Below are positions 1 to 17,003 of a stretch of DNA of 64,000 nt, one piece after another. Position 1 is the first letter of the stretch. Each line of letters starts with the position of its first letter. The translations under genes and the position numbers were made by a program. The DNA is taken from assembly GCF_900114495.1 (NCBI RefSeq), contig NZ_FOZI01000002.1, forward strand, positions 930,001 through 994,000. Reading direction: 5' to 3'. Under the pieces are notes generated by a model. That model had not been told where the DNA came from. It did not search any database and worked only from the letters and a program-made list of their open reading frames with translations. Source of the stretch: Dyella sp. OK004. GTDB taxonomy: Bacteria; Pseudomonadota; Gammaproteobacteria; Xanthomonadales; Rhodanobacteraceae.

Positions 1-81
1 ATAAATCAACGCACCCGACGCATAAGCCAGGCATAACAGCAGCGCCAGCCGCACCTTCAGCGTATTCAGGCGACGCCACAC
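1..81 (-). CDS. Partial CDS: N-terminus of a probable membrane sensor (histidine kinase?)
   Basis: Only the first 27 codons lie in the window. A GTG at 79-81 opens a frame reading VWRRLNTLKVRLALLLCLAY, that is, a short basic head followed by a hydrophobic segment, as in inner-membrane sensor kinases. The stop of the upstream exported protein (83-85) is two bases away, so the two are probably translated together. The nearby response regulator at 1017-2357 makes a partner kinase plausible. No catalytic domain is visible, so the kinase call is inference; any small-headed membrane protein would look the same. No clear Shine-Dalgarno precedes the GTG. Confidence 0.4.
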   Translation of the reverse strand, partial: MWRRLNTLKVRLALLLCLAYASGALIY

Positions 82-1016: not shown

Positions 1017-2357
<1,341 letters not shown>

Positions 2358-2430
2358 CGGGCTCTTACGCATGCAGACATGGATGCATCCTGCCGGCAAA
2401 AGGTTGTAATGACCATCGGCCTAGTCAGGC

Positions 2431-4248
2431 TCATGGCGCCGCCACTGGGTGGGCCGACGCCTTGCCAGCCTGCACCGCGGCGATCCAGGCATCGGTGCGG
2501 GCTTCCAGCACGTCCAGCGGCAGTGCGCCACCGCCGAGGATTTCGTCGTGGAAAGCGCGGATATCGAACTTGTCGCCCAGCGTCTTCTTCGCCCGCTCAC
2601 GCAGCTCGAGAATCTTCAGCTGCCCCATCTTGTAAGCCAGCGCCTGGCCCGGCCAGGTGACGTAGCGATCGGTCTCGGCCTGCAAATCCGGCTCGTCCTG
2701 GCTGGAGTGTGCGTGGAAGAAATCCACCATCTGCTGGCGCGTCCAGTGCTTGTAGTGCACACCGGTGTCGAGCACCAGGCGGTTCGCACGCAGCAGCTCG
2801 TCGGACAGGCGGCCGTAGTCGGAGATCGGGTCCTTGTAGAAGCCGATATCCTTGCCCAGGCGCTCCGCATACAGCGCCCAGCCCTCGATGTAGGCGGTAT
2901 AGCCTGCCTGCTGGCGGAACGGCGGTAGCGCCGGCAAGGTCTGCGCGATCGAGATCTGCATGTGATGGCCGGGAATCGCCTCGTGATACGCGGTCGATTC
3001 AATCGTCGGCGTGGTGCGATTGGCGAAGTCGCCGGTGTTGACGTACACCTGCCCCGGCCGCGAACCGTCCGGCGTGCCCTGGTGGTATTCGGCACCGGGC
3101 GCTTCCTTCTCGCGGTACGCCTCGACCGGCAACACTTCCACCTTGGTCTTCGGCAGCAGGCCGAACAGCTTCGGCAGCTCCGGCTGCATCTGCGCGATAA
3201 AGCCGCGATAGCGGTTGAGGATGTCTTCGCGCGACGTCGGATGCACCTTCGGGTCGGTCTTCAGCGCATCGCGGAAGCTGACCAGGTCCTTGTAACCCTG
3301 CGCCTTGGCGATGGCGGTCATCTCCACCTCGATGCGCGTCACCTCGGCCAGGCCGAGCTCGTGGATGTGCTCCGGGCTCTCCTTGGTCGTGGTCATCTGC
3401 TCGACGTCGTAGCGATAGATGGCGTCGCCGTTCGGCAACTGCCAGATACCGGGCTGGGTACGGCCATGTGGCGCGTAATCCTTGGCCACGAACTCGCCGA
3501 GCTTGCGATACGCCGGACGCACCTGGTTGTCGATGGCGGCGACGATCGCATCGTGCAGACGCTTGCGGTCCGCCTGCGGCACCGCGTCAGGGAAATGCTT
3601 CAGCGGTTCGGCGAACGCATTCTCCTCACCCGCCGGCTTGGCGATGCTGTCGATCTGCGTCACCACTTTTTCCAGCAGATAGCGCGGCGGCATCATGCCG
3701 TCCTTCATACCCTGCCGCGCCACCGCGGTGGCCTGCTCCAGCACCTGCGGAATCGCGCGCAGGCGCGCCAGGTAATCCTCGTACTGCTTGGTGGTGTCGA
3801 AGGGAATCGAGCTGACAAAACCCGGCAACTGCAGATGCACGCCGCTCATCTGCTCCAGCGGCATCTCATATAGCTTGAGGTCGACGCCGCGCAGGTTGTC
3901 CTTGAGCTGGCGCACCATCAGTTGCTGGTTGAGCTTGTCCTCTTCCGGGAAGCCGGTGGTGTCGATGGCCTCGAAACGCTTGAGGAAACCCTCGGTGACC
4001 TTGCGCTCCGCCGCCACATGCGCCAGCGACGCATCGCTCCAGCGATCGTTGTAGCGCAGGTCGCCAAGGATGGTGGCGAACTCCGGCGCGTTCTGCAGCG
4101 AGTGCTGCCATTGCTCGGCGAGCAGCGCATTGAGGGCCTTCACCCGGGTTGCCACGTCAGCCTGGGCAGGCTTCGCCACCGGCTCAGCCAACGCCAGGGT
4201 GACCGAGCCCATCAAGCTCGCGCAGATCATCAACGACACCAACTTCAT
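2431..4248 (-). CDS. DUF885 family exported peptidase-like protein (605 aa)
   Basis: The protein has a Sec signal peptide (about 1-21, ending LALA) and a long helical domain typical of DUF885. The family's metal-binding signature HEAIPGHH is at 422-429, resembling the HExxH of gluzincin peptidases. It probably acts in the periplasm as a metallopeptidase; this is inferred from family resemblance, not shown. The start is supported by GGAG eight bases before the ATG. It follows the last permease after 80 bases and precedes the response regulator on the same strand, so it is probably part of the exporter regulon and could cleave the exported or sensed peptide. Confidence 0.85.
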   Translation of the reverse strand: MKLVSLMICASLMGSVTLALAEPVAKPAQADVATRVKALNALLAEQWQHSLQNAPEFATILGDLRYNDRWSDASLAHVAAERKVTEGFLKRFEAIDTTGFPEEDKLNQQLMVRQLKDNLRGVDLKLYEMPLEQMSGVHLQLPGFVSSIPFDTTKQYEDYLARLRAIPQVLEQATAVARQGMKDGMMPPRYLLEKVVTQIDSIAKPAGEENAFAEPLKHFPDAVPQADRKRLHDAIVAAIDNQVRPAYRKLGEFVAKDYAPHGRTQPGIWQLPNGDAIYRYDVEQMTTTKESPEHIHELGLAEVTRIEVEMTAIAKAQGYKDLVSFRDALKTDPKVHPTSREDILNRYRGFIAQMQPELPKLFGLLPKTKVEVLPVEAYREKEAPGAEYHQGTPDGSRPGQVYVNTGDFANRTTPTIESTAYHEAIPGHHMQISIAQTLPALPPFRQQAGYTAYIEGWALYAERLGKDIGFYKDPISDYGRLSDELLRANRLVLDTGVHYKHWTRQQMVDFFHAHSSQDEPDLQAETDRYVTWPGQALAYKMGQLKILELRERAKKTLGDKFDIRAFHDEILGGGALPLDVLEARTDAWIAAVQAGKASAHPVAAP

Positions 4249-4328: not shown

Positions 4329-5543
4329 TCACACCGATCGCGTCGCCACTACCGGCGGAACCGCCGCCGCCTTCAGTGCCGGCCCCAACACCGCCAGCTG
4401 CCCCAAAGCCCACAGCACCACTGCGCCAACCGGCAAGTAGAACAACGGCAGGCGTGGCAGTTCGTAGAACTTCATCAGCAGCAAATTGAGTGCGAATGCC
4501 ATCACCATGCCCAGTGCAATGCCACCAGTGACGATCAGGAAGTTCTCGGTCTGGAAATAGCTGAGAATGTCATGCCGCGTCGCGCCAATAGCGCGGCGGA
4601 TGCCGATCTGCTTGCGGCGCTGCTGCACCCAGAAGCTGGCCAGGCCGACGATACCGAGCGCTGTCACCATCAGCAACGCGACGATTACGCCGACTAGCAT
4701 GCCGGTCATGACACGATCCTGCTGAAAGAATTTTTCGCGTAGATCGCTGATGGTCTGCGTACCCTGCTGATCGAGCACAACATCCGGCGCCACTATAGCG
4801 ATGGCCTCGCGAGCATCGCGTAGCACGCGCTGGATATCAGCCGGTGCTGCCTTGATCAGATAGTTGCCCGAAAGCATCGGCCCCGGCTGCCCGGGGACGA
4901 AGACGGACCAACCCGAGGTGCCGGCGCCGCGCATGCCCGGATCAGGTGTTACCAGATGATCGATGATACCGACTACCTGATAACGCCATTTGTCCAGCCA
5001 AAATGGCTTACCCAGCGGGTCGGCGCCGGGCCACAAATGCTCAGCCAGCTCGCGTGTCATCAGCACAGGCGCGGAACTCGGGAAAACACCGGTGAACGGT
5101 TGATAGTCATCCGCCTGCAAGGCGCGGCCAGCGACCACATGCAATCCCAATGCCTCCGCACTGCCCGGGCCACCGAGATAAAACTCGATCACTCCGCCCA
5201 AATGCTGGCCCTCGGCATCTGTGGTGATGCCCGACGTGCCGCGCCGCTCACCAAACGGAATGGAGTTGAGCACGCTGACCGACTGCACGCCCGGGATAGC
5301 GCGAAGGCCTGCTGTCACCCTCGCATTGATATCTACAGACTGGCTGTCTTCGTAGCCGCTGATCTTCAATGACGCGAGCGAGGTCTCGTCGATACCGCTT
5401 TGAACATGTATGTCCTGGACGCGATTGGCGATCAGGAAACACGCGTTGCATAACACCGCGCAGGCCAGCGCGATCTCCAGGCCGATCAATAGCGAGGCGA
5501 GCCGGTGACGGCGAAGGGCCGCGAGTATGGGTTGTATCTGCAT
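4329..5543 (-). CDS. FtsX/MacB-like ABC permease, B type of pair 4 (404 aa)
   Basis: An inner-membrane permease of the MacB_PCD plus FtsX type: one N-terminal membrane segment (LLIGLEIALACAVLCNACFL), a periplasmic domain of roughly 220 residues, then three C-terminal membrane segments around the FtsX core (RKQIGIRRAIGATRHDILSY). It ends ATRSV like the other three B permeases. It has no ATP-binding domain and presumably uses the shared ATPase at 14791-15513. It begins seven bases after A4, with AGGA at the junction. Its N-terminus is closest to B3 at 6992-8221, suggesting these two arose by a late duplication. Substrate unknown. Confidence 0.88.
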   Translation of the reverse strand: MQIQPILAALRRHRLASLLIGLEIALACAVLCNACFLIANRVQDIHVQSGIDETSLASLKISGYEDSQSVDINARVTAGLRAIPGVQSVSVLNSIPFGERRGTSGITTDAEGQHLGGVIEFYLGGPGSAEALGLHVVAGRALQADDYQPFTGVFPSSAPVLMTRELAEHLWPGADPLGKPFWLDKWRYQVVGIIDHLVTPDPGMRGAGTSGWSVFVPGQPGPMLSGNYLIKAAPADIQRVLRDAREAIAIVAPDVVLDQQGTQTISDLREKFFQQDRVMTGMLVGVIVALLMVTALGIVGLASFWVQQRRKQIGIRRAIGATRHDILSYFQTENFLIVTGGIALGMVMAFALNLLLMKFYELPRLPLFYLPVGAVVLWALGQLAVLGPALKAAAVPPVVATRSV

Positions 5544-5550
5544 AAGATCC

Positions 5551-6873
5551 TCAGAGCGTCTTCAACTGCAGGCCTGGTGCTACGCGGCTTGCCCGTGCCG
5601 CAGGCAGCAAGCCGGCGACAAGACTGGTGGCAATGGCGAGCGCGAAAGTGAGCAGGAACATGCTGCCGTCCAGATGGGCCAGATCGGCGAAGGCCACTGG
5701 CTGGCTGCGCACCACCCATAGTCCGGCCAAGGTCAGCAACAGGCCACCGAGGCCACCCAGCAATCCCACTATGCCTGCCTCGACCAGGCATTGCGCGAAG
5801 ATGGCGCCGCGGCTGGCACCCAGCGCCCGGCGCACGCCAATCTCACCCGAACGCCGCAGGAATTTCGCGAGCAGAAGACCAATGGTGTTGAACAGGCAGA
5901 TCGCAAGGAAGGCAAAGGCGAGCCAGGTCTGCAAGCGCACATCGCTCGGCACTACCCCATTGAAATCCAGCCATTCCATCAAGCTGCGCAGCCGGGTGTT
6001 CTGCGGCCTCACCACACGCCCCAGCGCATGCTGTTGCGCTGCATAGCCATCGAGAAAGCGTTTGAACGCCGCTACTTTCGTCGGATTGTTGAGCTGCACC
6101 CATACGCCGAGCCACGCACACGGCGCGTTCTGCAAGTGCCCCGGCGTCGGCGCGGGATGCCAACAGGTGTACTGATAGAAATTGCCGTCGTTAATTTCGA
6201 GACCGCTGGTGAACGGAGTGAATACATCCTGCGTCTTGCTGTAGAAATCGGCCGTCTTGCCCGCCGCGAAGCGGCCGCCGGCAACGGTGTAGAACTGCGG
6301 CGCGGGGCGCCATGGCGCCAATACGCCGACGATACGCACGTCCGTATCACGCAGGCGCAAAGTACGACCCACACTATTGGCGCCATTGAAAAGCTTGGCA
6401 TTGAGGTCCGATGAAATCACCGCCACACGCGCGTGCTTATCGTCATCCTCGGCATGCCACGCGCCGCCGTACCGGAACGGCACATCGAACATGGCGAAGA
6501 AATCGGACGTGGTAGATAGCATCGAGGGAATCAGTGGCGGCAGTTGCGTATCCGGCGCGCGCAACTTCACCGGACTATCGACCACCACCGTCTGCCGATC
6601 GGCCAGATGTGCGTTCAATATGTCCATAGCCGTCGGATAGTCGAGCTTGTCCAGCGGCTCCTTGTAGTTACCTGGTGTGGGATTCGAGTCGACCTGCGGA
6701 TAGAACAGCGACCCGCTTCGCCCCGGCAGCGGATCACCCGATAGCAAATGCATCACCGTCAGCGTGGTCATGCTCGCACCGATACCTACGGCGATAGCCA
6801 GCACCATCAGCGCCGTGAGTACCTTGTTGCGCTTGAGACTGCGCAAGGCAAGGTCGAGGTAGTAACCAAACAT
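5551..6873 (-). CDS. FtsX/MacB-like ABC permease, A type of pair 4 (440 aa)
   Basis: This has the same four-segment permease architecture but belongs to the A subtype, which begins MFxYYLxLALRSL and ends LQLK. The FtsX core reads EIGVRRALGASRGAIFAQ. Its periplasmic domain carries two cysteines (YTCWHP and NAPCAW) at the place where all four A permeases have a Cys pair just before a WVQL-like segment, so a conserved disulfide is likely. Its N-terminus is nearly the same as that of A3 (LDLALRSLKRNKVLTALMV). It is preceded by a 118-base gap containing a large inverted repeat, the widest gap between permease genes. Confidence 0.88.
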   Translation of the reverse strand: MFGYYLDLALRSLKRNKVLTALMVLAIAVGIGASMTTLTVMHLLSGDPLPGRSGSLFYPQVDSNPTPGNYKEPLDKLDYPTAMDILNAHLADRQTVVVDSPVKLRAPDTQLPPLIPSMLSTTSDFFAMFDVPFRYGGAWHAEDDDKHARVAVISSDLNAKLFNGANSVGRTLRLRDTDVRIVGVLAPWRPAPQFYTVAGGRFAAGKTADFYSKTQDVFTPFTSGLEINDGNFYQYTCWHPAPTPGHLQNAPCAWLGVWVQLNNPTKVAAFKRFLDGYAAQQHALGRVVRPQNTRLRSLMEWLDFNGVVPSDVRLQTWLAFAFLAICLFNTIGLLLAKFLRRSGEIGVRRALGASRGAIFAQCLVEAGIVGLLGGLGGLLLTLAGLWVVRSQPVAFADLAHLDGSMFLLTFALAIATSLVAGLLPAARASRVAPGLQLKTL

Positions 6874-6901
6874 GTCTCACTCCATCGACAGAATGACTCA
6901 C

Positions 6902-6975
6902 CGGTAGGAGCGCACCCTGTGCGCGACCGCTCTGCGTGCGACAAAGAGCATCGTGCACAGGGTGCGCTCCTACCG
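6902..6975. repeat. Inverted repeat with GGTAGGAGCGCACCCTGTGC arms
   Basis: Two arms, 6903-6922 and 6955-6974, are perfect 20-base reverse complements around a 32-base spacer; the match extends by one more base pair outward. It lies in the gap between B3 and A4. One arm reappears at 55813-55829, so this is a dispersed repeat family. In mRNA it would form a strong hairpin that might stabilise upstream message or limit read-through into pair 4. Confidence 0.8.
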
Positions 6976-6991
6976 AATCACGAAACGCATA

Positions 6992-8221
6992 TCACACCGA
7001 GCGAGTCGCCACTACCGGCGGCACGGCGGCCGCACGCATGGCCGGCCCAAGCACTGCGGCCTGCCCAATCAACCACAGCAACACCGCCCCGACCGGGAAA
7101 TAGATGGCGGGCAAACGCGGCAGCTCGTAATGCGTCATCAGGAACAGATTGATGCCATAGGCGAGCACCATGCCGATCGCAATGCCAATGGTGGCGAGCA
7201 GGAAGTTCTCGGTCTGGAAGTAATGAAGAATGTGACGACGGGTCGCGCCAAGCGCGCGCCGCACACCGATCTGCCGGCGACGCTGCGCCACCCAGAAGCT
7301 GCCGAGACCGACGATGCCCAGTGCAGTAACCACCAGCAGCGCAATACATACACCCACCAGCAGGCCGGTCATGGCGCGATCGTTCTGGAAGAATTTTTCG
7401 CGGACTTCGTCCCACGTGCGCTTCTTCAACACCACGCGGTTCGGATTGATCAGCTTGAGTTTCTCCAGCGCCGTTTTGAGCACGCGGTCGCGATCCTGCG
7501 GCGCCGTGCGAATCACGTACTGACCGCTATTGACGCGGATGGGAATGACCATGCTGTATTGCGCCGCGCTGTCATCCCAAATGGAAGGCCGCACCAGAGT
7601 CTTCATCAGGCCGACCACGGTCAAAGGCAGTTCGCTTCCCATATACAACTGCTTACCCAGGGCCTGCTGCCCCGGCCAGAGACGTTCGGCCATCGCCTGG
7701 GTAATCACCACCGAATGGGGTAGCGCCTTGCTATTGCTTTCACCGGCGGCAAAGGCCTTGATCGCGTCTTCAAGGTCCACGTACTCATCCGACTGCAGAA
7801 AACGGCCAGCAACGAGCTGCACGCCAAGGGTCTCTGCGACGTTCTCGCCGAAATAATTGGTGGCGTTCAAGGTCGACTTGTTTTGCTTCGGATCGATCTT
7901 GATGCCGCTGTTATTCGAGGAGTTGCCGAACGGCACCTGCTCTACCGCCGCCACCGCCGTCACTCCGGGGATCTGCCGGATGGCGGCCATGTCCGCCGCG
8001 GTGCGCGCTTTCTCATCCGCCTTCGCGCCGATATTGGCCAGCTCGATATGCAACAGCTCGTGTTCGGCGATGCCACTGGGCATATGGATGCGATCGATGC
8101 GCTGACTGATCAGGAACACTGCGTTGCAAACAATGGCGCAGGTCAGGGCGATCTCAAGAATTACCAGCAAGGCGGTGATCTTGTGCCGGCGTAAGGTAGA
8201 TAGGATCGGAAGGATGTCCAT
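6992..8221 (-). CDS. FtsX/MacB-like ABC permease, B type of pair 3 (409 aa)
   Basis: B-type permease with N-terminal membrane segment LLVILEIALTCAIVCNAVFL, the PSGI motif shared by B proteins, a periplasmic domain and the C-terminal FtsX core (RRQIGVRRALGATRRHILHY). It ends VVATRSV. A GTG start at 8233 would overlap A3 by four bases, but the ATG at 8219-8221 has AGGA five bases upstream and gives the same N-terminal length as its relatives, so I prefer it. It presumably pairs with A3 as a heterodimer, by analogy with two-permease LolCE-type transporters. Confidence 0.87.
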   Translation of the reverse strand: MDILPILSTLRRHKITALLVILEIALTCAIVCNAVFLISQRIDRIHMPSGIAEHELLHIELANIGAKADEKARTAADMAAIRQIPGVTAVAAVEQVPFGNSSNNSGIKIDPKQNKSTLNATNYFGENVAETLGVQLVAGRFLQSDEYVDLEDAIKAFAAGESNSKALPHSVVITQAMAERLWPGQQALGKQLYMGSELPLTVVGLMKTLVRPSIWDDSAAQYSMVIPIRVNSGQYVIRTAPQDRDRVLKTALEKLKLINPNRVVLKKRTWDEVREKFFQNDRAMTGLLVGVCIALLVVTALGIVGLGSFWVAQRRRQIGVRRALGATRRHILHYFQTENFLLATIGIAIGMVLAYGINLFLMTHYELPRLPAIYFPVGAVLLWLIGQAAVLGPAMRAAAVPPVVATRSV

Positions 8222-8229
8222 GGCGTTCC

Positions 8230-9534
8230 TCACTGGCTCTTCAGTTGCAGCGCTGGGGTGATCTGGCAGGCACGCCAGGCCGGCAACAGACCCGCAAGCA
8301 GACTGGAGATAAGCGCTAGCATGAAGGTCACCAGCAACATCGAAATATCGAGATGGGCCAGCGAGGCATAGTCCGCCGGTTGCAATCGCACCAACCAGAG
8401 ACCAAGGAAGGCCAGCACCAAGCCACCTACGCCACCCGCCAGGCCGATCACGCCAGCCTCCACCAGCAGCTGCACGAACACCTCGCGCTTGGAAGCGCCC
8501 AGGGCCCGGCGGACACCGAGCTCACCGGCGCGGCGCAGAAACTTCGCCAGCATCAGCCCCACCGTATTGACCAGACACACCAGCAGGAAGCCCAGGGCCA
8601 GCCAGCTCTGCAGACGCACGTCGCTGGGCACCACCTTGTTGACGTCCATCCACTCCATCACGTTCGACAGACGCACATTGGACGGCCGCTGGAAACGTCC
8701 CAGCGCTTTCTGCTCTTTCGAGTAGTTGTCCAGGAAAGTGCGGTAGTCAGCAGCCTTGTCCGCGCTTTCCAGCTGCACCCAGAACTGCAGCCAGACGCAG
8801 GTGGCGGTCTCGATATGCTCGTTGTCGCCACCGCCCCTGCCCCAGCAGTTCATACTGCCGTTGCGTTCGAAACGCAGGTCGCGCGCCGTGGTCAGCGGCA
8901 CGAAGACATCCTCCGTGGCGGAGTAGTTACCCATATTGAGATCGTAGAAGTGCGGGTTCGGCCGCCAAGTGTCGAGCACGCCGATCACACGGAACGCCGT
9001 GTCTTTCATGCGCAGAATCTTGCCGGTGCTGTCGTTGCCGCCGTACAGCTTGTCGTTGAGCGAGCGGGTAATCACCGCCACCCGGGCTTTGCCGTTGTCT
9101 TCCGCTTCGCTCCAGCCGCGGCCGAAGAGAAACGGCGTCTCGAACATCGGGAAGAAATCGGCGGTGGTGAAGCGCGCATCGCTGAAGAAGGGATCCATGC
9201 CCGACTGCGCCGGCTGCACCGGCACGGCACCGCCGGTCATCAGCGCCTGGCGCTCGCCGCGCTTGGCCTTGAGCAGGTTCATGCCGTCGATCCAGGTCAC
9301 CTGCCGCGCCGGCTCCTTGTTCGGCTCGTAACCATCCATGTCCTCCGGGTCGATCTGCGGATAGAACAACCGCGCGCTCTTGCCCGGCAACGGATCGCCG
9401 GAAAGCACATGCAACACGGTGAATGTGGTCATACAGGCGCCAATGCCCAGTGCGATGGCAATCACCATCAGCGCGGTGAGCACCTTGTTGCGTTTGAGGC
9501 TGCGTAGTGCCAGATCCAGGTAGTACGAAAACAT
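8230..9534 (-). CDS. FtsX/MacB-like ABC permease, A type of pair 3 (434 aa)
   Basis: A-type permease beginning MFSYYLDLALRSLKRNKVLT and ending LQLKSQ. The FtsX core reads ELGVRRALGASKREVFVQ. The periplasmic Cys pair of the A subtype is present (SMNCWG and TATCVWL). It is closer to A4 than to A1 or A2 at both ends, which fits an ancestral pair having duplicated into two lineages and each duplicating again. It follows B2 after 32 bases and precedes B3 with its stop codon next to the B3 ribosome-binding site. Confidence 0.88.
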   Translation of the reverse strand: MFSYYLDLALRSLKRNKVLTALMVIAIALGIGACMTTFTVLHVLSGDPLPGKSARLFYPQIDPEDMDGYEPNKEPARQVTWIDGMNLLKAKRGERQALMTGGAVPVQPAQSGMDPFFSDARFTTADFFPMFETPFLFGRGWSEAEDNGKARVAVITRSLNDKLYGGNDSTGKILRMKDTAFRVIGVLDTWRPNPHFYDLNMGNYSATEDVFVPLTTARDLRFERNGSMNCWGRGGGDNEHIETATCVWLQFWVQLESADKAADYRTFLDNYSKEQKALGRFQRPSNVRLSNVMEWMDVNKVVPSDVRLQSWLALGFLLVCLVNTVGLMLAKFLRRAGELGVRRALGASKREVFVQLLVEAGVIGLAGGVGGLVLAFLGLWLVRLQPADYASLAHLDISMLLVTFMLALISSLLAGLLPAWRACQITPALQLKSQ

Positions 9535-9566
9535 GCGACCTCCCCCTTATCGTTCTGGTGCCCGGA

Positions 9567-10796
9567 TCACACCGAGCGCGTAGCCTCAACCGGCGATACC
9601 CTCGAGGCACGGATGGCCGGTGCCAGCACCGCCCCCTGCCCCAGCAACAGCAACAGCAACACGCCTGCCAATACATAAAACAGCGACAACCGATGCATCT
9701 CGAACCGGGTGACCATCCATAGGTTCATGGCGATCGCCAGCAGCACGCCGACCACGGCACCACCGACGCTGATCAACAAGTTCTCAGTCATGAAGTAGCC
9801 GAGGATGTCGCCCCGCGTCGCGCCCAGTGCGCGGCGCACGCCAATTTGTTTGCGGCGCTGGCCCACCCAGAAACTGGTGAGACCGACGATGCCGGCGGCA
9901 GTGATGGCCAGCAGCACCACGCAGATGACGCCCATCAGCACCGCCATGCCGTAATCGCTGTCGTAGGCTTTCTGGCGTACTTCCGCGTAGCCCATCACTC
10001 CGTCGTCGTTGATCACGCGCATGCGATTCTGCGCATAGAGCGCTTTGACCGCTTCTTTCCGAAGCATGGCGAGTTGACCGGGCTTGGCCCGCAGGATGTA
10101 GTAGGCATTTCCCACCAGGCGCATCGGCCAGATCAGCGATTGGTAGGCATTGCGCATCTGCCAGTCGGCCAGACTCTGTGTCTGCAACACATCCACGATG
10201 CCGATAATGGTCGTGGGTGTGTTGCTCATCGCGTAGATCGGCTTGCCCAGTGCCGAACCGTCGGGAAACAACTTGTCCGCCAGCGTCTTCGTAACAATGG
10301 TCACCGGCGGCATGACATTTTCGCGATTGGCGATCGGGCGGATCTCATCCGGGCGGAAGTTGCGCCCCGCGATCAGCTTTACTCCGAGCGTGTCCATGAA
10401 GTGCTCGTCGCCGAGATAGACCGCTGCATCACCGACCGCCGTGGTCTGATCCGGCGTCAAGGTGATGAACTGGTCCCAGCCGCCACCGCGCATGGGATAG
10501 GAATTACTGGCGACGGCGTCTTGCACGCCGGGTAGCCGACGCAACACCATCAGATCCGCGCGCTGCTGAGCGTCGGCGTCCTCCTTGCTCAACTTGTCCG
10601 CCCAGCTGTTTTCGATCACCAGCAGGTTCGCCTCATCAATGCCGCTGGGTGCGGAAAGGTGGGCGACCCGCTGCTGGATGATGAATAACGCATTGCAGAC
10701 GATCGCCAGGGTCAGCGCGGTCTGCAACGCAATCAGCACAGCGCCAGCCTTGTGACGACGCAATGCGGAAAGGATGGGCTTGATCTGCAGCATCAT
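9567..10796 (-). CDS. FtsX/MacB-like ABC permease, B type of pair 2 (409 aa)
   Basis: B-type permease with N-terminus MLQIKPILSALRRHKAGAVL, an almost exact match to B1, then IALTLAIVCNALFIIQQRV-type first membrane segment, periplasmic domain, and FtsX core RKQIGVRRALGATRGDILGY. It ends VEATRSV. Two adjacent ATGs are available at the start (10796 and 10793). It begins seven bases after A2. No Walker motifs are present, so it depends on a separate ATPase. Confidence 0.88.
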   Translation of the reverse strand: MMLQIKPILSALRRHKAGAVLIALQTALTLAIVCNALFIIQQRVAHLSAPSGIDEANLLVIENSWADKLSKEDADAQQRADLMVLRRLPGVQDAVASNSYPMRGGGWDQFITLTPDQTTAVGDAAVYLGDEHFMDTLGVKLIAGRNFRPDEIRPIANRENVMPPVTIVTKTLADKLFPDGSALGKPIYAMSNTPTTIIGIVDVLQTQSLADWQMRNAYQSLIWPMRLVGNAYYILRAKPGQLAMLRKEAVKALYAQNRMRVINDDGVMGYAEVRQKAYDSDYGMAVLMGVICVVLLAITAAGIVGLTSFWVGQRRKQIGVRRALGATRGDILGYFMTENLLISVGGAVVGVLLAIAMNLWMVTRFEMHRLSLFYVLAGVLLLLLLGQGAVLAPAIRASRVSPVEATRSV

Positions 10797-10803
10797 TGCG
10801 ACC

Positions 10804-12117
10804 TCAATTGGATTTGAGCTGCCACGCCGGCTGCACCTGGGCTGCGCGCCAGGTGGGATACAGCGCGGCTACGACGGTGGCAAAGACGGAAACCAGCAGA
10901 GTCAGCCCCACCAGCGCGACGTCGAGGTGCGCCAGGCGCGCAATCTGCGGCTGGAACAACAACCCGACGCCGGAGATGCCCAGGGCCGTCAGCAGCAGGC
11001 CAAGGAAGCCGCCGGCCAGGCCCACCGAGCCGGCCTCGATCAGGTACTGCATGTAGATTTCCCTACGCGACGCCCCTAGCGCACGGCGCACGCCGATCTC
11101 GCTGGCACGACGCAGGAACTTGGCCAGCAACAGGCCGATGGTATTGATCAGGCAGATCGCGAAGAAGCCCAGCGCTACCAGCAGTGAAACGCTGCTTTCC
11201 TGCGGCACTACCTGCATGTAATCCAGCCACTGCATGACATTGCGCAGACGCACATTGGGCGCCCAGCCGTAACGCCCGGCGCGCTGCTGGTCGGAGGCAT
11301 AGCCTTCGAGGAACTGGCGGTACTGCGCAACCTCTGCCGCGCTGTCCAGCTGAACCCAGGGAGTCACCCATACGCAGTTGCTTTGCAGCCATCCATCCCA
11401 GTCGCCGTAATCAATACGGCCACGGCAACTGTTGTTGCCCGCGGTATCGATCTTCAGATCGAGCGCACGGCTGATGGGAATATAGATGTCCGAGGGCTCG
11501 CCGAAGCTGGAGCCGCCCCAGACCGCGAAGAAACGCGGCTTGGGATTCCAGTTCTCGGTGACACCCACCACGCGGTAGTTATGCCCGCTCAGCGTGATCT
11601 CGCGACCCAGGCTGTTGGCGCCGCCAAACAGCTTGTCGTTGAGCTTTCGGCTGATCACCACCACGGCCGCGCGTTGCTCATCCTCAGCGGTACCCCAGGC
11701 ACTGCCGTAGAGGAAAGGCACGTCGAACATTGCAAAGAAATCACTTTGCGCCGTAAAGCCCTGCACGGTGAATGGTATGGACTGGCCGCCCAGCGGCAAT
11801 GCCGACATCCCGATCGGATACAGCATGGTTTGCCGCTTGGCCTTGTGCTCACGCATCAGCGCCATGGCATCCACATAGTTCAGCGCGTAGGGCGGCTCAT
11901 TACCCGTCAGGTTGTACTTCGGCCCCCAACTGTCGACCTGTGGAATGAACAGCTGCTCCGACTTTTCCGGAATAGGATTGCCCGAAACCGCCCGGAACAC
12001 CGAGTAGGTGATCATCGACGCGGCCACGCCAAAGCCGATCGCCATGACCATCAGGGCAGTCAACAAAGGGTTGCGACGCAGACTGCGCAAACCAAGTTGG
12101 AGGTAGTAAGAAAACAT
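10804..12117 (-). CDS. FtsX/MacB-like ABC permease, A type of pair 2 (437 aa)
   Basis: A-type permease, the same length as A1 and very like it at the N-terminus (LGLRSLRRNPLLTALMVMAI) and C-terminus (VQPAWQLKSN). FtsX core EIGVRRALGASRREIYMQ. The Cys pair is present (NNSCRG and QSNCVW). The ATG at 12115-12117 starts at the conserved MFSYYLQLGLRS; an in-frame upstream start would run into B1 and is not used by relatives. It is separated from B1 by 46 bases. Confidence 0.88.
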   Translation of the reverse strand: MFSYYLQLGLRSLRRNPLLTALMVMAIGFGVAASMITYSVFRAVSGNPIPEKSEQLFIPQVDSWGPKYNLTGNEPPYALNYVDAMALMREHKAKRQTMLYPIGMSALPLGGQSIPFTVQGFTAQSDFFAMFDVPFLYGSAWGTAEDEQRAAVVVISRKLNDKLFGGANSLGREITLSGHNYRVVGVTENWNPKPRFFAVWGGSSFGEPSDIYIPISRALDLKIDTAGNNSCRGRIDYGDWDGWLQSNCVWVTPWVQLDSAAEVAQYRQFLEGYASDQQRAGRYGWAPNVRLRNVMQWLDYMQVVPQESSVSLLVALGFFAICLINTIGLLLAKFLRRASEIGVRRALGASRREIYMQYLIEAGSVGLAGGFLGLLLTALGISGVGLLFQPQIARLAHLDVALVGLTLLVSVFATVVAALYPTWRAAQVQPAWQLKSN

Positions 12118-12163
12118 CGGCAAAAGATCCTTCGTCCTTATGTCGTCTGGCAGCCGTGCGGCA

Positions 12164-13402
12164 TTACACCGACCGTGTTGCCTCAACCGGCGGCACCTTC
12201 GCCGCGCGCATGGCCGGCGCCAATACCGCCGCCTGACCGAGCAGCAGCAATGCGATCACGCCGGCAAACACGTACACCGCCGACAGCCGCGCCATCTCGA
12301 ACTGCGTGACCATCCACAGGTTCAAACCCACCGCCAGTCCCGCACCGATCACCACGCCGGCGATGCCGATCATCAGGTTCTCGGTGAGGAAGTAGCTGAG
12401 AATGTCGTGCTTGGTGGCGCCCAGCGCACGGCGCACGCCGATCTGCTTGCGGCGCTGGCCGACCCAGAAGCTGGTGAGACCCACGATGCCGGCCGCCGTG
12501 ATGGCGAGCAGGATCACGCAGATCACGCCCATCAGGATCGCCATGCCGCGGTCGTTTTTGTAGGCGTCTTCGCGCACCTTCTCGTAGGTGCGGATCGCGC
12601 GCTCGCCGGAGATCACACGCATGCGGTTGGTCTTGAGCAGCGCTTCCGGTGCGCTCTTGGTCACCGCGGCGAGCTGACCGGGCTTGGCACGGATCAGGTA
12701 GATCCCGTAGGAGCCGGTGAGCTGCACTGGCAGCAGCGTGGCGTTCTCCACGAAGTCGTTGGCCCAGATGCCCGACCACGGCACCTGCAATTGCTTGACG
12801 ATGCCGATGATGGTGCTGGGTGGCACGTCCTTGCCTGAGAGGTACATCTGCTTGCCCAAGGCGTCGCCCTTCGGGAACAGCTTGTCGGCAAGCGCTTTGG
12901 TCACAATCACCTGCGGCGTCGACTTGATGTCCTTGGGATCGGCGACGATCACCTCGTCGGCGGTGAAATTGCGGCCGGCGATCAACTGGGCGCCGTAGAC
13001 GGCGAGCGCGTGCTCATCCACAAAGTAGAGCGTGGTCTGCCCCGCCGGCTTTCCGTTCTCCTTGGGCACAAGATTCACGCCCGTGGACCAGCCGCCGCCG
13101 CGCAGCGGGAAGGAGTTGGTGTTCATCGCGTCCTCCACCCCGGGCAGCTGGCGCAGCGCCTGCACGTCGGTCTTGGTCAGCGAGGCGGTGTCTTTGTCGT
13201 TCACCGCCACCCAGCGATTGGTGATCGCCAGTACGTTGCTTTCATTCATGCCGCTGGGGCGCGACAGGCGTTGTACGCGCTGCTGGATGATGAACAGTGC
13301 GTTGCACACGATCGCCAAGGTCAGCGCGATCTGCAGTGCAATGAGGATGGTGCCAGCCTTGTGGCGCTTGAGAGCGGCGAGAATGGGTTTGATCTGCAGC
13401 AT
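12164..13402 (-). CDS. FtsX/MacB-like ABC permease, B type of pair 1 (412 aa)
   Basis: B-type permease: MLQIKPILAALKRHKAGTIL head, first membrane segment IALTLAIVCNALFI, periplasmic domain of about 230 residues, and FtsX core RKQIGVRRALGATKHDILSY. It ends VEATRSV. It lies ten bases after A1. Together with A1 it forms the pair nearest the ATPase and adaptor and is the likely original exporter unit; this is inference from gene order. Confidence 0.88.
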   Translation of the reverse strand: MLQIKPILAALKRHKAGTILIALQIALTLAIVCNALFIIQQRVQRLSRPSGMNESNVLAITNRWVAVNDKDTASLTKTDVQALRQLPGVEDAMNTNSFPLRGGGWSTGVNLVPKENGKPAGQTTLYFVDEHALAVYGAQLIAGRNFTADEVIVADPKDIKSTPQVIVTKALADKLFPKGDALGKQMYLSGKDVPPSTIIGIVKQLQVPWSGIWANDFVENATLLPVQLTGSYGIYLIRAKPGQLAAVTKSAPEALLKTNRMRVISGERAIRTYEKVREDAYKNDRGMAILMGVICVILLAITAAGIVGLTSFWVGQRRKQIGVRRALGATKHDILSYFLTENLMIGIAGVVIGAGLAVGLNLWMVTQFEMARLSAVYVFAGVIALLLLGQAAVLAPAMRAAKVPPVEATRSV

Positions 13403-13412
13403 AGTCGTCGCC

Positions 13413-14726
13413 TCAGTTGGATTTCAGCTGCCAGGCCGGCTGCACCTGTGCAGCGCGCCAGGTGGGATAGAAGGCCGCGATCACCGTGGCCAGGATCGCC
13501 ACCAGCAGGGTCAGCAACACCAGCGGCACATCCAGCGTGGCCAGGCGCGCGACCTGCGGGTCGAAGATCAGCGAGATGCCGTACACGCCCACGCCGGTCA
13601 GCAACAGGCCGAGCAAGCCACCTGCCAGCCCGACCGCGGCGGCTTCGATCAGGAACTGCATGTAGATCTCACTACGTGCCGCGCCCAGCGCACGACGTAC
13701 ACCGATCTCCGACGAGCGGCGCATGAATTTGGCCAGCAATAGACCGATGGTGTTGACCAGGCAGATGATCAGGAAGCCCAGCGCCACCAGCAGCGAGATC
13801 TTGGCTTCCGCCGGCACTACTTTCTCGAAGTCCAGCCACTCCACGACGTTGCGCAGGCGCACGTTCGGTGCCCAGCGGAAGCGACCGGCCCGCTGCTGTT
13901 CGGCGGCGTAACCACTGAGATAGCTGCGATAGGCATCGGCCTCAGCCTTGCTGGGCAGCTCGGCCCAGAAACCCAGCCAGATGCATTCGGAATGCAACCA
14001 GTTGTCCCAACCCTGGCCGGGATCCTTGTTGCAGTTGTTGTTGCCATTGGTGGGCACCTTCAACTCGATCATGCGGGTAAACGGCACGAACAACTGCGTC
14101 GGGTCGTCGAAGCCGCCGGTGTTGACCGCGTCGAAGAACAGCGGCTGCGGATCCCAGTGGTCCATCACACCGGTGATGCGGTAGCTGCGGCCGTCCAGAT
14201 TGATCTCGCGGCCGACGCTGTTCTCACCGTGGAACAGCTTGTCGTTGAGGGTCTTGCCGATCACCGCGACCGCTGCGCGCGAATCATCCTCGGCTGCCGT
14301 CCAGCCACCGCCATAGCGGAAAGGGATGTCGAACATGGCGAAGGCGTCGGCATAAACGGCATACGTGTTCTCGTGGAACGGTAGCTGATTGGCATCGGCC
14401 GGCACGATCGACAGGCCGGCGGGGTACAGCGCGGTCTGTCGCTTGGCACGATGGTCGCGCATCAGCCCGATAGCGTCGGTGTAGGTGATCGCCTGCGGCG
14501 GCTCGCCGTTGTTGCGCTGGGCATCCTCCGGACCCCAGTTGTCGATCTGCGGCACAAACAACTGTGAGGACTTCTGCGGGATCGGGTTATTGGACGTCGC
14601 GCGGAACACCGAATAGGTGGTCATCGATGCCGCCACGCCGAAGCCGATCGCCATCACCATCAAGGCGGTGAGCAATGGATTCTTGCGGAGACTGCGCAAG
14701 CCGAGCTGGAAGTAATAGGCGAACAT
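13413..14726 (-). CDS. FtsX/MacB-like ABC permease, A type of pair 1 (437 aa)
   Basis: A-type permease beginning MFAYYFQLGLRSLRKNPLLT, with a large periplasmic domain containing the Cys pair (NNNCNK and HSECIW), FtsX core EIGVRRALGAARSEIYMQ and C-terminus VQPAWQLKSN. The start at 14724-14726 is chosen because all A proteins begin at this MF motif. It is the first permease after the ATPase, from which it is separated by 64 bases carrying a strong hairpin (14752-14771). Confidence 0.88.
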   Translation of the reverse strand: MFAYYFQLGLRSLRKNPLLTALMVMAIGFGVAASMTTYSVFRATSNNPIPQKSSQLFVPQIDNWGPEDAQRNNGEPPQAITYTDAIGLMRDHRAKRQTALYPAGLSIVPADANQLPFHENTYAVYADAFAMFDIPFRYGGGWTAAEDDSRAAVAVIGKTLNDKLFHGENSVGREINLDGRSYRITGVMDHWDPQPLFFDAVNTGGFDDPTQLFVPFTRMIELKVPTNGNNNCNKDPGQGWDNWLHSECIWLGFWAELPSKAEADAYRSYLSGYAAEQQRAGRFRWAPNVRLRNVVEWLDFEKVVPAEAKISLLVALGFLIICLVNTIGLLLAKFMRRSSEIGVRRALGAARSEIYMQFLIEAAAVGLAGGLLGLLLTGVGVYGISLIFDPQVARLATLDVPLVLLTLLVAILATVIAAFYPTWRAAQVQPAWQLKSN

Positions 14727-14751
14727 CGAGGGCGTCCGTCGAAGGGAGGGA

Positions 14752-14771
14752 CCTCCCGCCACAGCGGGAGG
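14752..14771 (-). promoter_or_regulatory. Intercistronic hairpin between ATPase and first permease
   Basis: A perfect 8-bp stem CCTCCCGC/GCGGGAGG with a four-base loop lies in the 64-base gap. There is no T-tract, so it is not a classic terminator; it may stabilise the upstream mRNA and set a different ratio of ATPase to permease. Function is inferred. Confidence 0.5.
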
Positions 14772-14790
14772 AATCCAGAGCTAGCTGCAG

Positions 14791-15513
14791 TTACGCCGGC
14801 GTACCCGTGTGTGCGGTGTGCTGCGCGTGGTGGAAGCGCGGATCTTCAGCGAGATCGACCACCTGACCGTCGATGATGTGCACGTTGCGCTGGGCGCGTG
14901 CGGCGAGTTCCGGATCATGCGTCACCATCACGATGGTGGCGCCTTCGCGATGGATCTCTTCCAGCAGCTCCATCACGCCACGAGCCATCTGCGTGTCCAG
15001 GTTGCCGGTCGGTTCGTCGGCGAGCAGCAGGCGCGGCGAGCCGGCCAATGCACGGGCGATGGCGACGCGCTGCTGCTGACCGCCAGAGAGTTCGGCCGGA
15101 TAGTGCTTGGCGCGCGAAGCCAGACCCACGCGCTCCAGCGCATCCATGATGCGCTGCTTGCGCTCGGCGGCCTTCATGCCGCGATAGCGCAGCGGCACTT
15201 CGACGTTGTCGAACACGTTGAGGTCGGGAATCAGGTTGAACGCCTGGAAGATGAAACCGATTTTCTCGTTGCGGATCTTGGAGCGCGCGTTGTCGTTGAG
15301 GTTGCTCACCTCCACGCCGTCCAGGTGGTATTCGCCGCCAGTGAAGGTTTCCAGCAGGCCGGCGATGGTGAGGAAGGTGGTTTTGCCGGAACCAGACGGA
15401 CCGGTGACGGCGACGAACTCGCCTTCTTTCACGTCAATGTTGAAATCGCGCAGCGCGTAGGTCTCCACCACTTCGGTGCGGTAGACCTTGGACAGGTGAG
15501 TCATCTTGAGCAT
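14791..15513 (-). CDS. ABC transporter ATP-binding protein, LolD/MacB type (240 aa)
   Basis: A single nucleotide-binding domain: Walker A GPSGSGKT (38-45), signature LSGGQQQ (142-148), Walker B LLLADEPTGNLD (162-173), and the switch His in VMVTHDPE. The sequence is of the LolD/MacB/FtsE group that powers FtsX-type permeases by mechanotransmission from the cytoplasm. It is the only ATPase in a cluster with eight permease genes, so it probably serves several or all of them. It follows the adaptor gene by 36 bases on the same strand. A second in-frame ATG is three codons in (MTHLSK). Confidence 0.93.
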   Translation of the reverse strand: MLKMTHLSKVYRTEVVETYALRDFNIDVKEGEFVAVTGPSGSGKTTFLTIAGLLETFTGGEYHLDGVEVSNLNDNARSKIRNEKIGFIFQAFNLIPDLNVFDNVEVPLRYRGMKAAERKQRIMDALERVGLASRAKHYPAELSGGQQQRVAIARALAGSPRLLLADEPTGNLDTQMARGVMELLEEIHREGATIVMVTHDPELAARAQRNVHIIDGQVVDLAEDPRFHHAQHTAHTGTPA

Positions 15514-15549
15514 GGTTATGCGTCCTTCGGTGATGAGCGTGGTGGTGAA

Positions 15550-16821
15550 TCAGCGACTGATGGCGACGCGCGCCGCATTTTTGAAACTGTCGGTACCGGA
15601 GATCACAATGCGGTCGCCTTCTTTCAGACCGTCGAGGATCTCGACCTTGTCGATGCTGCTGGCGCCGACGCGGATCGGGTGCTTCTCGGCGATGCCGTCG
15701 CGCACCAGGTAGGCATAGGCGCCGCCGGATTCGTCGACGAAGGAGCCGCGCTGCACGGTGAGTACGTTGTCGCGCTTGTCGAGCAGGATGCGCACGGACA
15801 GGCGCTGGTTCTGGCGCAGCTGCTTGGGCGTGTCGCCTTCAAAGCGCAGGCGTGCGGCTACTTCGCCATTCACCACTTCCGGCGAGATGGCGCTGACCAG
15901 GCCCTTCCAGGTGTTGCCGTTGCCGGTGATCTCGCCACCCATGCCAATGCCCAGGTCGCGGGCGAAGCTTTCCGGCACCTTCATTTCCACTTCGAGCGCG
16001 GAGAGGTCGATGACGCTGAGCAGCTGCGCGTCCTTGGCCACGGTGGCGCGCTCGGCGATGAACAGCTGGCCTACCTGGCCATCCACCGGCGACTTCACAT
16101 TGAGGTCGTCGACCTGGCGCTTCAGATCTTCCACCAGCAGCACCTGGCGATCATGCGCGAGCTTCTTCGACTTGATGTCGAAGTTGAGGCTGTCGCTGTC
16201 AGTGCCGAGGTCGGCTTTCGCGTGCAGCGTGGTGATCTTGGACTTCTGCAACTCATCCTTCGCCTTGTCCACATTCATGCTGGGTACGGCGCCTTGGGCG
16301 AAGGCCTTCTGGTAACGCGCCAGGTCGCGCTCGGCGCCCTGCTGGTCGATCTGCGCGTTGTCGAAGGCCTTTTGCAGTTCGCCGCGCTTCTTGCGAGCGT
16401 CGATCTGCGCTCGCAGGTAGTCCACTTCCATCGCGTCGGCGGCGCTCTGTTCCTGCGCGAGCTTGTTGGTGAGCTCGGGGCTGACGATGGTGGCTAGCGC
16501 CTGGCCCTTCTTCACCGCATCGCCGGCGTGCACCTTCAAGGTGACCGCGCCGCCGGAAGTGGCGTAGAGCGTGGGGCTGACGGCGGCGACGACCTTGCCT
16601 TCGGCGGCGATGTCGCGCACGAAGAGGCCGCGTTCCACCACGGCGAAGGCGAGGCGGGAGGCGCTGACCGAAGCATCGGCCGAGAACAGTCGGCTGGCTT
16701 GCGGCAACACGAAGGCCAGTACAGCCACCGCAGCCACGCCGGCCCCGATCAACATCAGGCGGCGCTTGCGGTTGGGTTTGACCTCGACCAGGCGGTCTTG
16801 AGCAGAGGTATCGCGAATCAT
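15550..16821 (-). CDS. HlyD/AcrA-type periplasmic adaptor (membrane fusion protein, 423 aa)
   Basis: The first gene of the exporter cluster. One N-terminal membrane anchor (LIGAGVAAVAVLAFVLPQ) is followed by a barrel-sandwich half (TLKVHAGDAVKKGQALATIV), a long Ala/Lys/Gln-rich coiled coil (about 110-210), the second biotinyl-lipoyl half (VKSPVDGQVGQLFI), and a beta-barrel region. Such proteins bridge the inner-membrane transporter to an outer-membrane TolC channel; no TolC gene is in this window. The ATG at 16819-16821 is preceded by AGGGA at good spacing; an upstream GTG in frame is less likely. A sigma-54 promoter lies 45 bases upstream of it. Confidence 0.9.
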   Translation of the reverse strand: MIRDTSAQDRLVEVKPNRKRRLMLIGAGVAAVAVLAFVLPQASRLFSADASVSASRLAFAVVERGLFVRDIAAEGKVVAAVSPTLYATSGGAVTLKVHAGDAVKKGQALATIVSPELTNKLAQEQSAADAMEVDYLRAQIDARKKRGELQKAFDNAQIDQQGAERDLARYQKAFAQGAVPSMNVDKAKDELQKSKITTLHAKADLGTDSDSLNFDIKSKKLAHDRQVLLVEDLKRQVDDLNVKSPVDGQVGQLFIAERATVAKDAQLLSVIDLSALEVEMKVPESFARDLGIGMGGEITGNGNTWKGLVSAISPEVVNGEVAARLRFEGDTPKQLRQNQRLSVRILLDKRDNVLTVQRGSFVDESGGAYAYLVRDGIAEKHPIRVGASSIDKVEILDGLKEGDRIVISGTDSFKNAARVAISR

Positions 16822-16865
16822 GGAGCGGTCCCTGGCCACAAACCGTGTGGCCCCGAACCTGTTTC

Positions 16866-16882
16866 AGCAAGCTGCGTGCCAA
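16866..16882 (-). promoter_or_regulatory. Sigma-54 (-24/-12) promoter of the exporter operon
   Basis: Read on the minus strand the sequence is TTGGCACGCAGCTTGCT, which matches the sigma-54 consensus TGGCACG-N4-TTGC at every defined position, with the essential GG and GC ten bases apart. It is 45 bases upstream of the adaptor start. With a sigma-54 activator in the same cluster, the assignment is strong. Confidence 0.88.
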
Positions 16883-16935
16883 GCATCGCGAAGCTTTCAA
16901 TTCAACAACTTGGCGATGATTTTCGCACCGCATGC

Positions 16936-16990
16936 GTTGTCCGCGGACAACCGCACGGACAGGCGGACAAGTGTCCGGTCAGTCTGTCCG
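16936..16990. promoter_or_regulatory. Upstream activator sites: six TGTCCG/CGGACA half-sites
   Basis: A perfect 16-bp palindrome GTTGTCCGCGGACAAC (16936-16951) is followed by CGGACA (16956-16961), an inverted pair CGGACA-AG-TGTCCG (16964-16977) and a further TGTCCG (16985-16990). The array is 54-124 bases upstream of the -24/-12 promoter, the usual position for enhancer sites of NtrC-type activators. The regulator at 1017-2357 is the likely ligand; that is inference. Confidence 0.75.
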
Positions 16991-17003
16991 GCCTAAAGCC
17001 TGC

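Follow-up and report, generated by a model that had tools for sequence, protein, structure and literature searches.

How can several different permease pairs be driven when the operon that encodes them supplies only one ATPase? The question is raised by a ten-gene array in the soil bacterium Dyella sp. OK004 (genome of 4.96 Mb), which we analysed within a 64-kb window, the whole stretch from position 930,001 to 994,000 of contig NZ_FOZI01000002.1. On the minus strand of the window, a single adaptor gene and a single ATPase gene are followed by eight permease genes of two kinds, alternating as A1-B1-A2-B2-A3-B3-A4-B4, and our analysis confirmed this order, which had been described in an earlier note on this DNA. 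We consider it probable that the array encodes an exporter akin to MacAB-TolC, whose permease heterodimers are exchangeable and share a single ATPase and a single adaptor; its cargo would probably be peptides. The gene arrangement, with one ATPase in each array, the evolution of the permeases as pairs and the common DNA site are observed directly, whereas the A-B heterodimer, the use of a shared motor and the cargo are what we infer.

Two kinds of permease behind one adaptor and one ATPase

The adaptor gene (15550..16821, minus strand as all genes described here for the window, with an alternative GTG start at 16839) encodes a periplasmic protein of the HlyD/RND_mfp type, and the sole ATPase of the array (14791..15513) belongs to the LolD/MacB class. 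They are followed by A1 (13413..14726), B1 (12164..13402), A2 (10804..12117), B2 (9567..10796), A3 (8230..9534), B3 (6992..8233, starting at GTG 8233 or ATG 8221), A4 (5551..6873) and B4 (4329..5543), with intergenic gaps of -4 to 118 nt. Within the array, neither sigma-70 promoters (1 vs 3.3 in shuffled sequences) nor terminators (11 vs 10.6) were in excess; thus, nothing favours separate transcripts. The closest named matches of B1 came from Dyella marensis (85%) and Dyella sp. SG609 (84%).

The identities among the eight proteins bore out the two types, A and B, and the grouping of pairs 1 and 2 versus 3 and 4 that the earlier note had drawn from the sequence. The A proteins are 63% (A1/A2), 53% (A3/A4) or 43–46% (all remaining combinations) identical, and the B proteins 58% (B1/B2), 51% (B3/B4) or 38–44%, while A and B share 18–23%. 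No pair turned out to be closer to an outside family than to its neighbours, since A proteins scored 298–556 bits and B proteins 234–454 bits within their kind, as compared with at most 43 and 37 bits, respectively, when set against four further permeases encoded in the genome.

All eight permeases matched the Pfam FtsX domain and seven matched MacB_PCD, for which B4 gave no match at E 0.001. With TIGR03434, the model of the single-chain ADOP permeases, every A aligned to positions 6–401 (the N-terminal half) and every B to positions 410–801 (the C-terminal half). The scores of 157–190 bits per half, against 622 bits for the full model, stay below what the full chain requires. The array thus resembles an ADOP divided over two genes per pair, and differs from one by including an ATPase and an adaptor; ADOPs, judging from the family name, presumably have no ATPase nearby.

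AlphaFold models were made for A1 and B1, each with 55 relatives (predicted local distance difference test scores of 90.1 and 92.0, respectively). In both models, a single membrane helix precedes a large periplasmic domain, after which three further helices follow, giving four long membrane helices in total, in contrast to the single 10-helix permease of the BceAB type. The nearest solved structure to both was MacB, which the models fit better than FtsX; more distant matches by fold were Streptococcus pneumoniae 5xu1, LolCDE and HrtBA, and by sequence LolF. As modelled, the A and B permeases have a MacB-like fold. This fold and its parts are already known from MacB, or type VII, transporters (PMC8277102).

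At the DNA level, stretches of about 250–1000 bp within the membrane domains (window 4329–17000) are about 71–79% identical across pairs and genomes. Unequal crossing-over at such conserved islands could add or remove pairs.

Permease pairs as evolutionary units across the family

We detected the adaptor in 140 of the 147 genomes of the GTDB family (E 1e-45), as a single match in each genome except for one with two, and read the arrays in 52 of these 140 genomes, picked for spread. Every array contained one adaptor and one ATPase (52/52); of two extra ATPase matches, that in G004 is part of the next cluster and that in G098, a fragment of 27 bits, adjoins the main match. The number of A-B pairs per cluster, a count that the earlier note had called for, ranged from one to nine: one pair in nine arrays, two in three, three in four, four in eleven, five in seven, six in eight, seven in five, eight in four and nine in one, amounting to 230 pairs, with the counts for G038 and G051 being lower bounds. 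As the alternating array is also present in relatives, its arrangement is not due to chance.

The pair is the unit in which these permeases evolve, as indicated by one tree of 229 A proteins and another of 229 B proteins, with one pair left out. The orthologous groups obtained from the two trees agree with an adjusted Rand index of 0.87, and the joined tree comprises 32 groups, a group being the largest clade in which no genome appears twice. The window has the pair types in the order B-F-C-A (A1 to A4, respectively), four of the five congeners examined have B-E-C-A, and the fifth has B-F-D-T-C. For the second window pair, the identity (A/B) is 92/82% with pair 2 of G004, 91/87% with that of G025, which belongs to another genus, and only 60–67/65–70% with the pair in the second slot of G001, G002, G003 and G005. 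In the same four genomes, pair 1 is 78–92/75–85% identical to that of the window, and the remaining pairs of G025 show 75/74, 74/74 and 59/53%. Such divergent identities among relatives point to separate histories of the pairs, with which both exchange and differential loss appear compatible.

The earlier note had proposed that an A/B unit doubled twice. This account proved too local: the four window pairs represent four lineages, each occurring in several genera, so the duplications are old, and pair 2 belongs to another lineage than the second slot in four of the five congeners examined. We therefore rejected a simple double duplication within this species.

The surfaces of the proteins differ in how far they are conserved. 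In a comparison of up to three rows per pair type, the cytoplasmic coupling segment around IGVRRALGA had an identity of 0.66 (A) and 0.72 (B) between pair types, while the periplasmic part had 0.39 (A) and 0.30 (B). This pattern suggests a motor-facing surface that is common to the pair types and a cargo-facing surface that varies.

A large and variable number of pairs might also mean that only the first pair works with the ATPase, the others being spares that are in the course of being lost or kept for dosage. The range of one to nine pairs is consistent with this, as is one five-pair array (L079 in G032) in which A2 of the second pair lies in two separate frames, being either broken or misassembled. 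However, 459 of 462 A/B matches span >90% of the profile in a single open frame, the pair lineages are retained across genera, the coupling segments are conserved between types, and pairs that are 38–63% identical are not dosage copies. We regard spare copies as an unlikely explanation.

The adaptor passed TIGR01730 and has MacA as its nearest solved structure, which makes it MacA-like; DarC was its third-best NCBIfam model (81.4 bits, with a cut-off of 450), and the DarC and MacA models both remained below their cut-offs. The top NCBIfam model of the ATPase was DarD (257.4 bits; cut-off 375), and the LolD equivalog gave 221.5 bits (cut-off 307.75). Walker A, LSGGQ and Walker B are intact in the ATPases of all 52 arrays. 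A TolC-like gene of about 445–450 aa lies between the ATPase and the first A in seven arrays. Six of these genes were tested against the model and identified as TolC above the cut-off (L092:2849-4195, L090:2784-4124, L088:2820-4157, L096:2935-4278, L097:15842-17176 and L101:15758-17101), and the seventh, in G105, is alike by its first residues. No TolC gene lies inside the array of the window itself. The gene in the seven arrays implies that the system is tripartite, at least in those relatives.

Paired permeases served by a separate LolD-class ATPase also recall LolCDE, and LolC, LolE and LolF are among the next nearest structures, so that the array could be thought to extract lipoproteins and pass them to a periplasmic carrier. 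Against this stand the LolD score, the presence in the same genome of a further permease and ATPase resembling LolC and LolD, the adaptor, and the TolC-like gene of relatives. On the model scores, the adaptor and the TolC-like gene we rejected a Lol-type extractor, which we deem highly improbable.

Downstream of the array lie, in order, a gene for a DUF885 protein (2431..4248), a sigma-54 response regulator (1017..2399; receiver, AAA+ and Fis-type helix-turn-helix domains by domain matches) and the 5′ end of its partner histidine kinase (1..81; HAMP, PAS and HATPase), whose gene crosses the window edge (L064:8699-10081). The DUF885 protein carries a HEAIPGHH motif, and we take it to be probably a secreted metallopeptidase. 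Its gene is found between the last B and the regulator in 23 of the 52 arrays, including three one-pair arrays, and in 48 of 52 the sequence read 3′ of the array includes a relative of the regulator. The one-pair layout (adaptor and ATPase, one A and one B, DUF885 in some cases, then regulator and kinase) is probably the ancestral plan.

A second type of cluster was also encountered, consisting of an adaptor, an ATPase and one to about twelve fused ADOP permeases, mostly followed by a regulator and a kinase (ten read; L106-L107, L109-L110, L113-L114, L118-L124, L126, L127 and the end of L068). All of these clusters (10/10) carry their own sigma-54 site, and a further ATPase stands behind the permeases in three long clusters (G009, G021 and G047). 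As it repeats the plan with fused ADOPs, the design arose or spread twice.

A common sigma-54 site, unlinked pairs and their probable power source

A separate ATPase dedicated to pairs 2–4 would remove the idea of a shared motor, which had been advanced in the earlier note. The window genome contains 15 PF02687 domains, eight in the array and seven elsewhere, and each of the seven, of which four were also read in their loci, adjoins its own ATPase; no second ATPase dedicated to the array pairs was found in this search. The shared motor proposed earlier thus withstood the comparison with outside families and the ATPase search, while the simple double-duplication origin attached to it did not hold. 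Compared with its counterparts in eight genomes whose arrays have several pairs or that have unlinked pairs, the array ATPase of the window is 93–97% identical, as against 79–94% for the essential LolD of the same genomes. Such slow change is what might be expected of a motor with many partners, although it is based on ten genomes and proves little.

Upstream of the adaptor of the window, we identified a sigma-54 promoter (TGGCACG-CAGC-TTGCT; 16866..16881, minus strand), with 0 mismatches to the consensus, and the 12-nt palindrome TGTCCGCGGACA (16938..16949), a putative enhancer for the sigma-54 regulator. With at most two mismatches, the promoter precedes the adaptor in 51/51 loci of a first set (with up to three mismatches allowed, 0.13 sites are expected by chance in each region) and in 52/52 arrays of a second; the two sets overlap, and the first counts some loci twice. 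Exact TGTCCGCGGACA lies ahead of the adaptor in 45 of 52 arrays, and the seven others are all one-pair arrays, one with a single mismatch and six with no copy. In the 2.12 Mb of sequence retrieved, from loci that had been chosen for arrays and pairs, we counted 61 copies of the palindrome, against 0.25 predicted by base composition, and a sigma-54 site lies within 110 nt of every copy. Palindrome and promoter form a joint pattern in 112 of 147 genomes, with 0 for the reversed control. The operon's own regulator is presumably the protein that binds the palindrome.

The same site also stands in front of permease pairs remote from any array. We read 18 such unlinked A-B pairs in four relatives, namely G147, which holds the Dyella mobilis locus L047, and G148-G150, which hold Luteibacter loci; the genomes were chosen since a pair (in L061, a short array) had already been seen there, and the counts are not rates. 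Each genome has one adaptor match, and the three arrays read contain seven, one and two pairs. Within 7–11 kb on either side of the 18 pairs, there was no LolD-class ATPase or adaptor, the best matches to the ATPase profile being of 51–60 bits in frames of 558 to 1123 aa. In the tree, the unlinked pairs nest among the pair types of the arrays, and directly 5′ of nine of the 18 we found the exact palindrome together with the promoter (at most one mismatch). A pattern search led to at least twelve further A genes; around the six that were read (about 8–10 kb downstream and about 1 kb or less upstream), the top match to the ATPase profile was of 77 bits, and one locus is a row of three pairs. The unlinked pairs, lacking a nearby ATPase, probably borrow that of the array.

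The unlinked pairs also bear on whether A and B proteins might mix freely, the four A with the four B giving up to sixteen pumps. Their encoding in one operon and their similar membrane domains would allow this, but the A and B trees agree, pairs vary between genomes as units, and each of the 18 unlinked pairs joins one A with one B, including L165:9292-11862, a single chain of 857 aa with an N half of the A type and a C half of the B type. Tree agreement and this natural fusion disfavour free mixing, to which we assign little probability.

The exported compounds are probably peptides picked up in the periplasm, either antimicrobial ones or the cell's own, as suggested by the DUF885 gene in the operon and by peptide-related neighbours of the unlinked pairs. 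The latter are nonribosomal peptide synthetase (NRPS) genes at L059/L157 and L156 (2/18), an exporter with a C39 peptidase at L166 (1/18), radical SAM genes at L170 and L174 (2/18), an X-Pro dipeptidyl-peptidase (L160), a pro-kumamolisin protein (L162), and BlaR1-type M56 and DPP4-type peptidases (L164); two-component genes were present as well (L158, L159 and L163). In D. mobilis (L059:8668-21176), an unlinked pair with the shared site is convergent with a phosphopantetheinyl transferase gene and lies near an NRPS frame of 2431 aa.

Several observations weigh against a single motor or a peptide cargo. Nine of the 18 unlinked pairs do not have the shared palindrome and promoter, and other ATPases of those genomes could power the unlinked pairs. 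In the window genome, there are three weaker ATPase matches (35–42% identical, in frames of 347–494 aa) remote from FtsX domains. The slow evolution of the ATPase may have other causes: G149, with a one-pair array, has an ATPase as slow-evolving as the others, and in two more distant genomes the identities of the ATPase and of LolD are 79% vs 78% (G021, one pair) and 79% vs 68% (G084, three pairs). As to cargo, L165, L168, L169, L172, L173 and L175 had no clear peptide link among the neighbours tested, and the neighbour set was a partial one (L161 left out) with no random control.

Genes of other kinds share the site as well. We read 88 unique joint-pattern sites, comprising 30 listed ones and others picked by hand away from adaptors, a selection that is not a random sample; 41 lie upstream of small proteins, 13 of adaptors, 12 of A genes and 22 of others. 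The window genome has two joint-pattern sites, that of the array and one 5′ of a small protein of 67 aa (L206:4774-4974, or C8:999773-999973), which stands behind the palindrome and the sigma-54 promoter as at 40 similar sites in relatives. Members of this family (45–73 aa) have a conserved hydrophobic N-terminus, MKFExLMLRGLFVACLLVCGL, and a variable tail; there was no Pfam match for the one tested and no NCBIfam match for the two tested, and their genes often lie upstream of what we take to be a trmL-like gene. The other genes include those for alpha/beta peptidases and for beta-lactamase-fold hydrolases (L215, L220, L233, L234, L239, L243, L256 and L259; L220, L243 and L259 recognised by Pfam and the remainder by the likeness of their first residues). 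The hydrolase of L259 follows a small protein, the others stand directly behind the site, and that of L220 is nearest to AmpH, far below the cut-off.

These hydrolases would also suit an FtsEX-like role, in which the pairs switch periplasmic peptidases or cell-wall hydrolases by ATP-driven changes and pump nothing. In relatives, the shared site precedes AmpH-like beta-lactamase-fold hydrolases and also an NlpC/P60 protein, the latter with a small protein in between, and DUF885 is encoded in the operon itself. Signalling, however, needs neither the MacA-like adaptor of all 52 arrays nor the TolC-like gene of seven, and the models of A1 and B1 are closer to MacB than to FtsX. Because of the adaptor and TolC, signalling is less likely, as is a Lol-like role, and we think it improbable.

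Proposed mechanism and relation to known transporters

In the exporter that we favour, each A and B would form one MacB-fold heterodimer, as LolC and LolE do and as the paired genes and concordant trees suggest. The conserved cytoplasmic coupling segment would let any of the four heterodimers dock on the single ATPase homodimer; each would also dock on the one MacA-like adaptor that leads to TolC, and the variable periplasmic domains would select the cargo. The sensor kinase and the sigma-54 regulator would turn on the array and, in relatives, also the unlinked A-B pairs.

A wider reading, which we put forward as tentative, is a genome-wide plug-in network. One motor and one adaptor, produced under one sigma-54 switch, might power a changing set of pairs that lie in the array and, in relatives, also elsewhere on the chromosome, some of them in peptide-related clusters. 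The small proteins, under the same switch, would be cargo or AcrZ-like helper subunits, and pairs would be acquired, lost and swapped like cartridges. Such a network would explain how ADOP-type orphans find an ATPase.

Among known systems, MacAB-TolC is alike in its MacA-like adaptor, its MacB-fold permease with four transmembrane helices and a large periplasmic domain, and, for some arrays of relatives, the TolC-like gene. Its ATPase is fused to the permease, whereas that of the array is a separate gene, and the array permease is probably a heterodimer with many pairs per ATPase. LolCDE likewise combines two different four-helix permeases with a separate ATPase, in the stoichiometry LolCED2 (PMC8277102), but has a single pair, no adaptor and lipoprotein cargo, and the array ATPase stays below the cut-off of the LolD model. 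The darobactin exporter DarBCD supplies the best ATPase model and the third-best adaptor model, and differs in having a single permease chain, with all array scores below the equivalog cut-offs.

Sharing of a motor is a design known for importers. ECF transporters are built in this way. MceG, the ATPase common to the mycobacterial Mce importers (PMC9947336), is alike in serving several permease pairs encoded elsewhere; it differs from the array ATPase by serving importers of another family, with no adaptor-TolC exporter. In the open-licence literature searched, we found no description of adding pairs to one motor in tripartite exporters, with one motor for two to nine permease pairs plus unlinked pairs.

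Orphan permeases of the MacB/FtsX type may be present in great numbers. One acidobacterial genome encodes 102 'acidobacterial orphan permeases' (PMC10564751), and the unlinked pairs of the relatives are orphan-like. Since one DNA site is common to array pairs, unlinked pairs and a single ATPase in this family, the question of how orphan permeases are powered becomes experimentally addressable. If the proposal is true, an added permease pair would change the specificity of the exporter with no need for a new motor.

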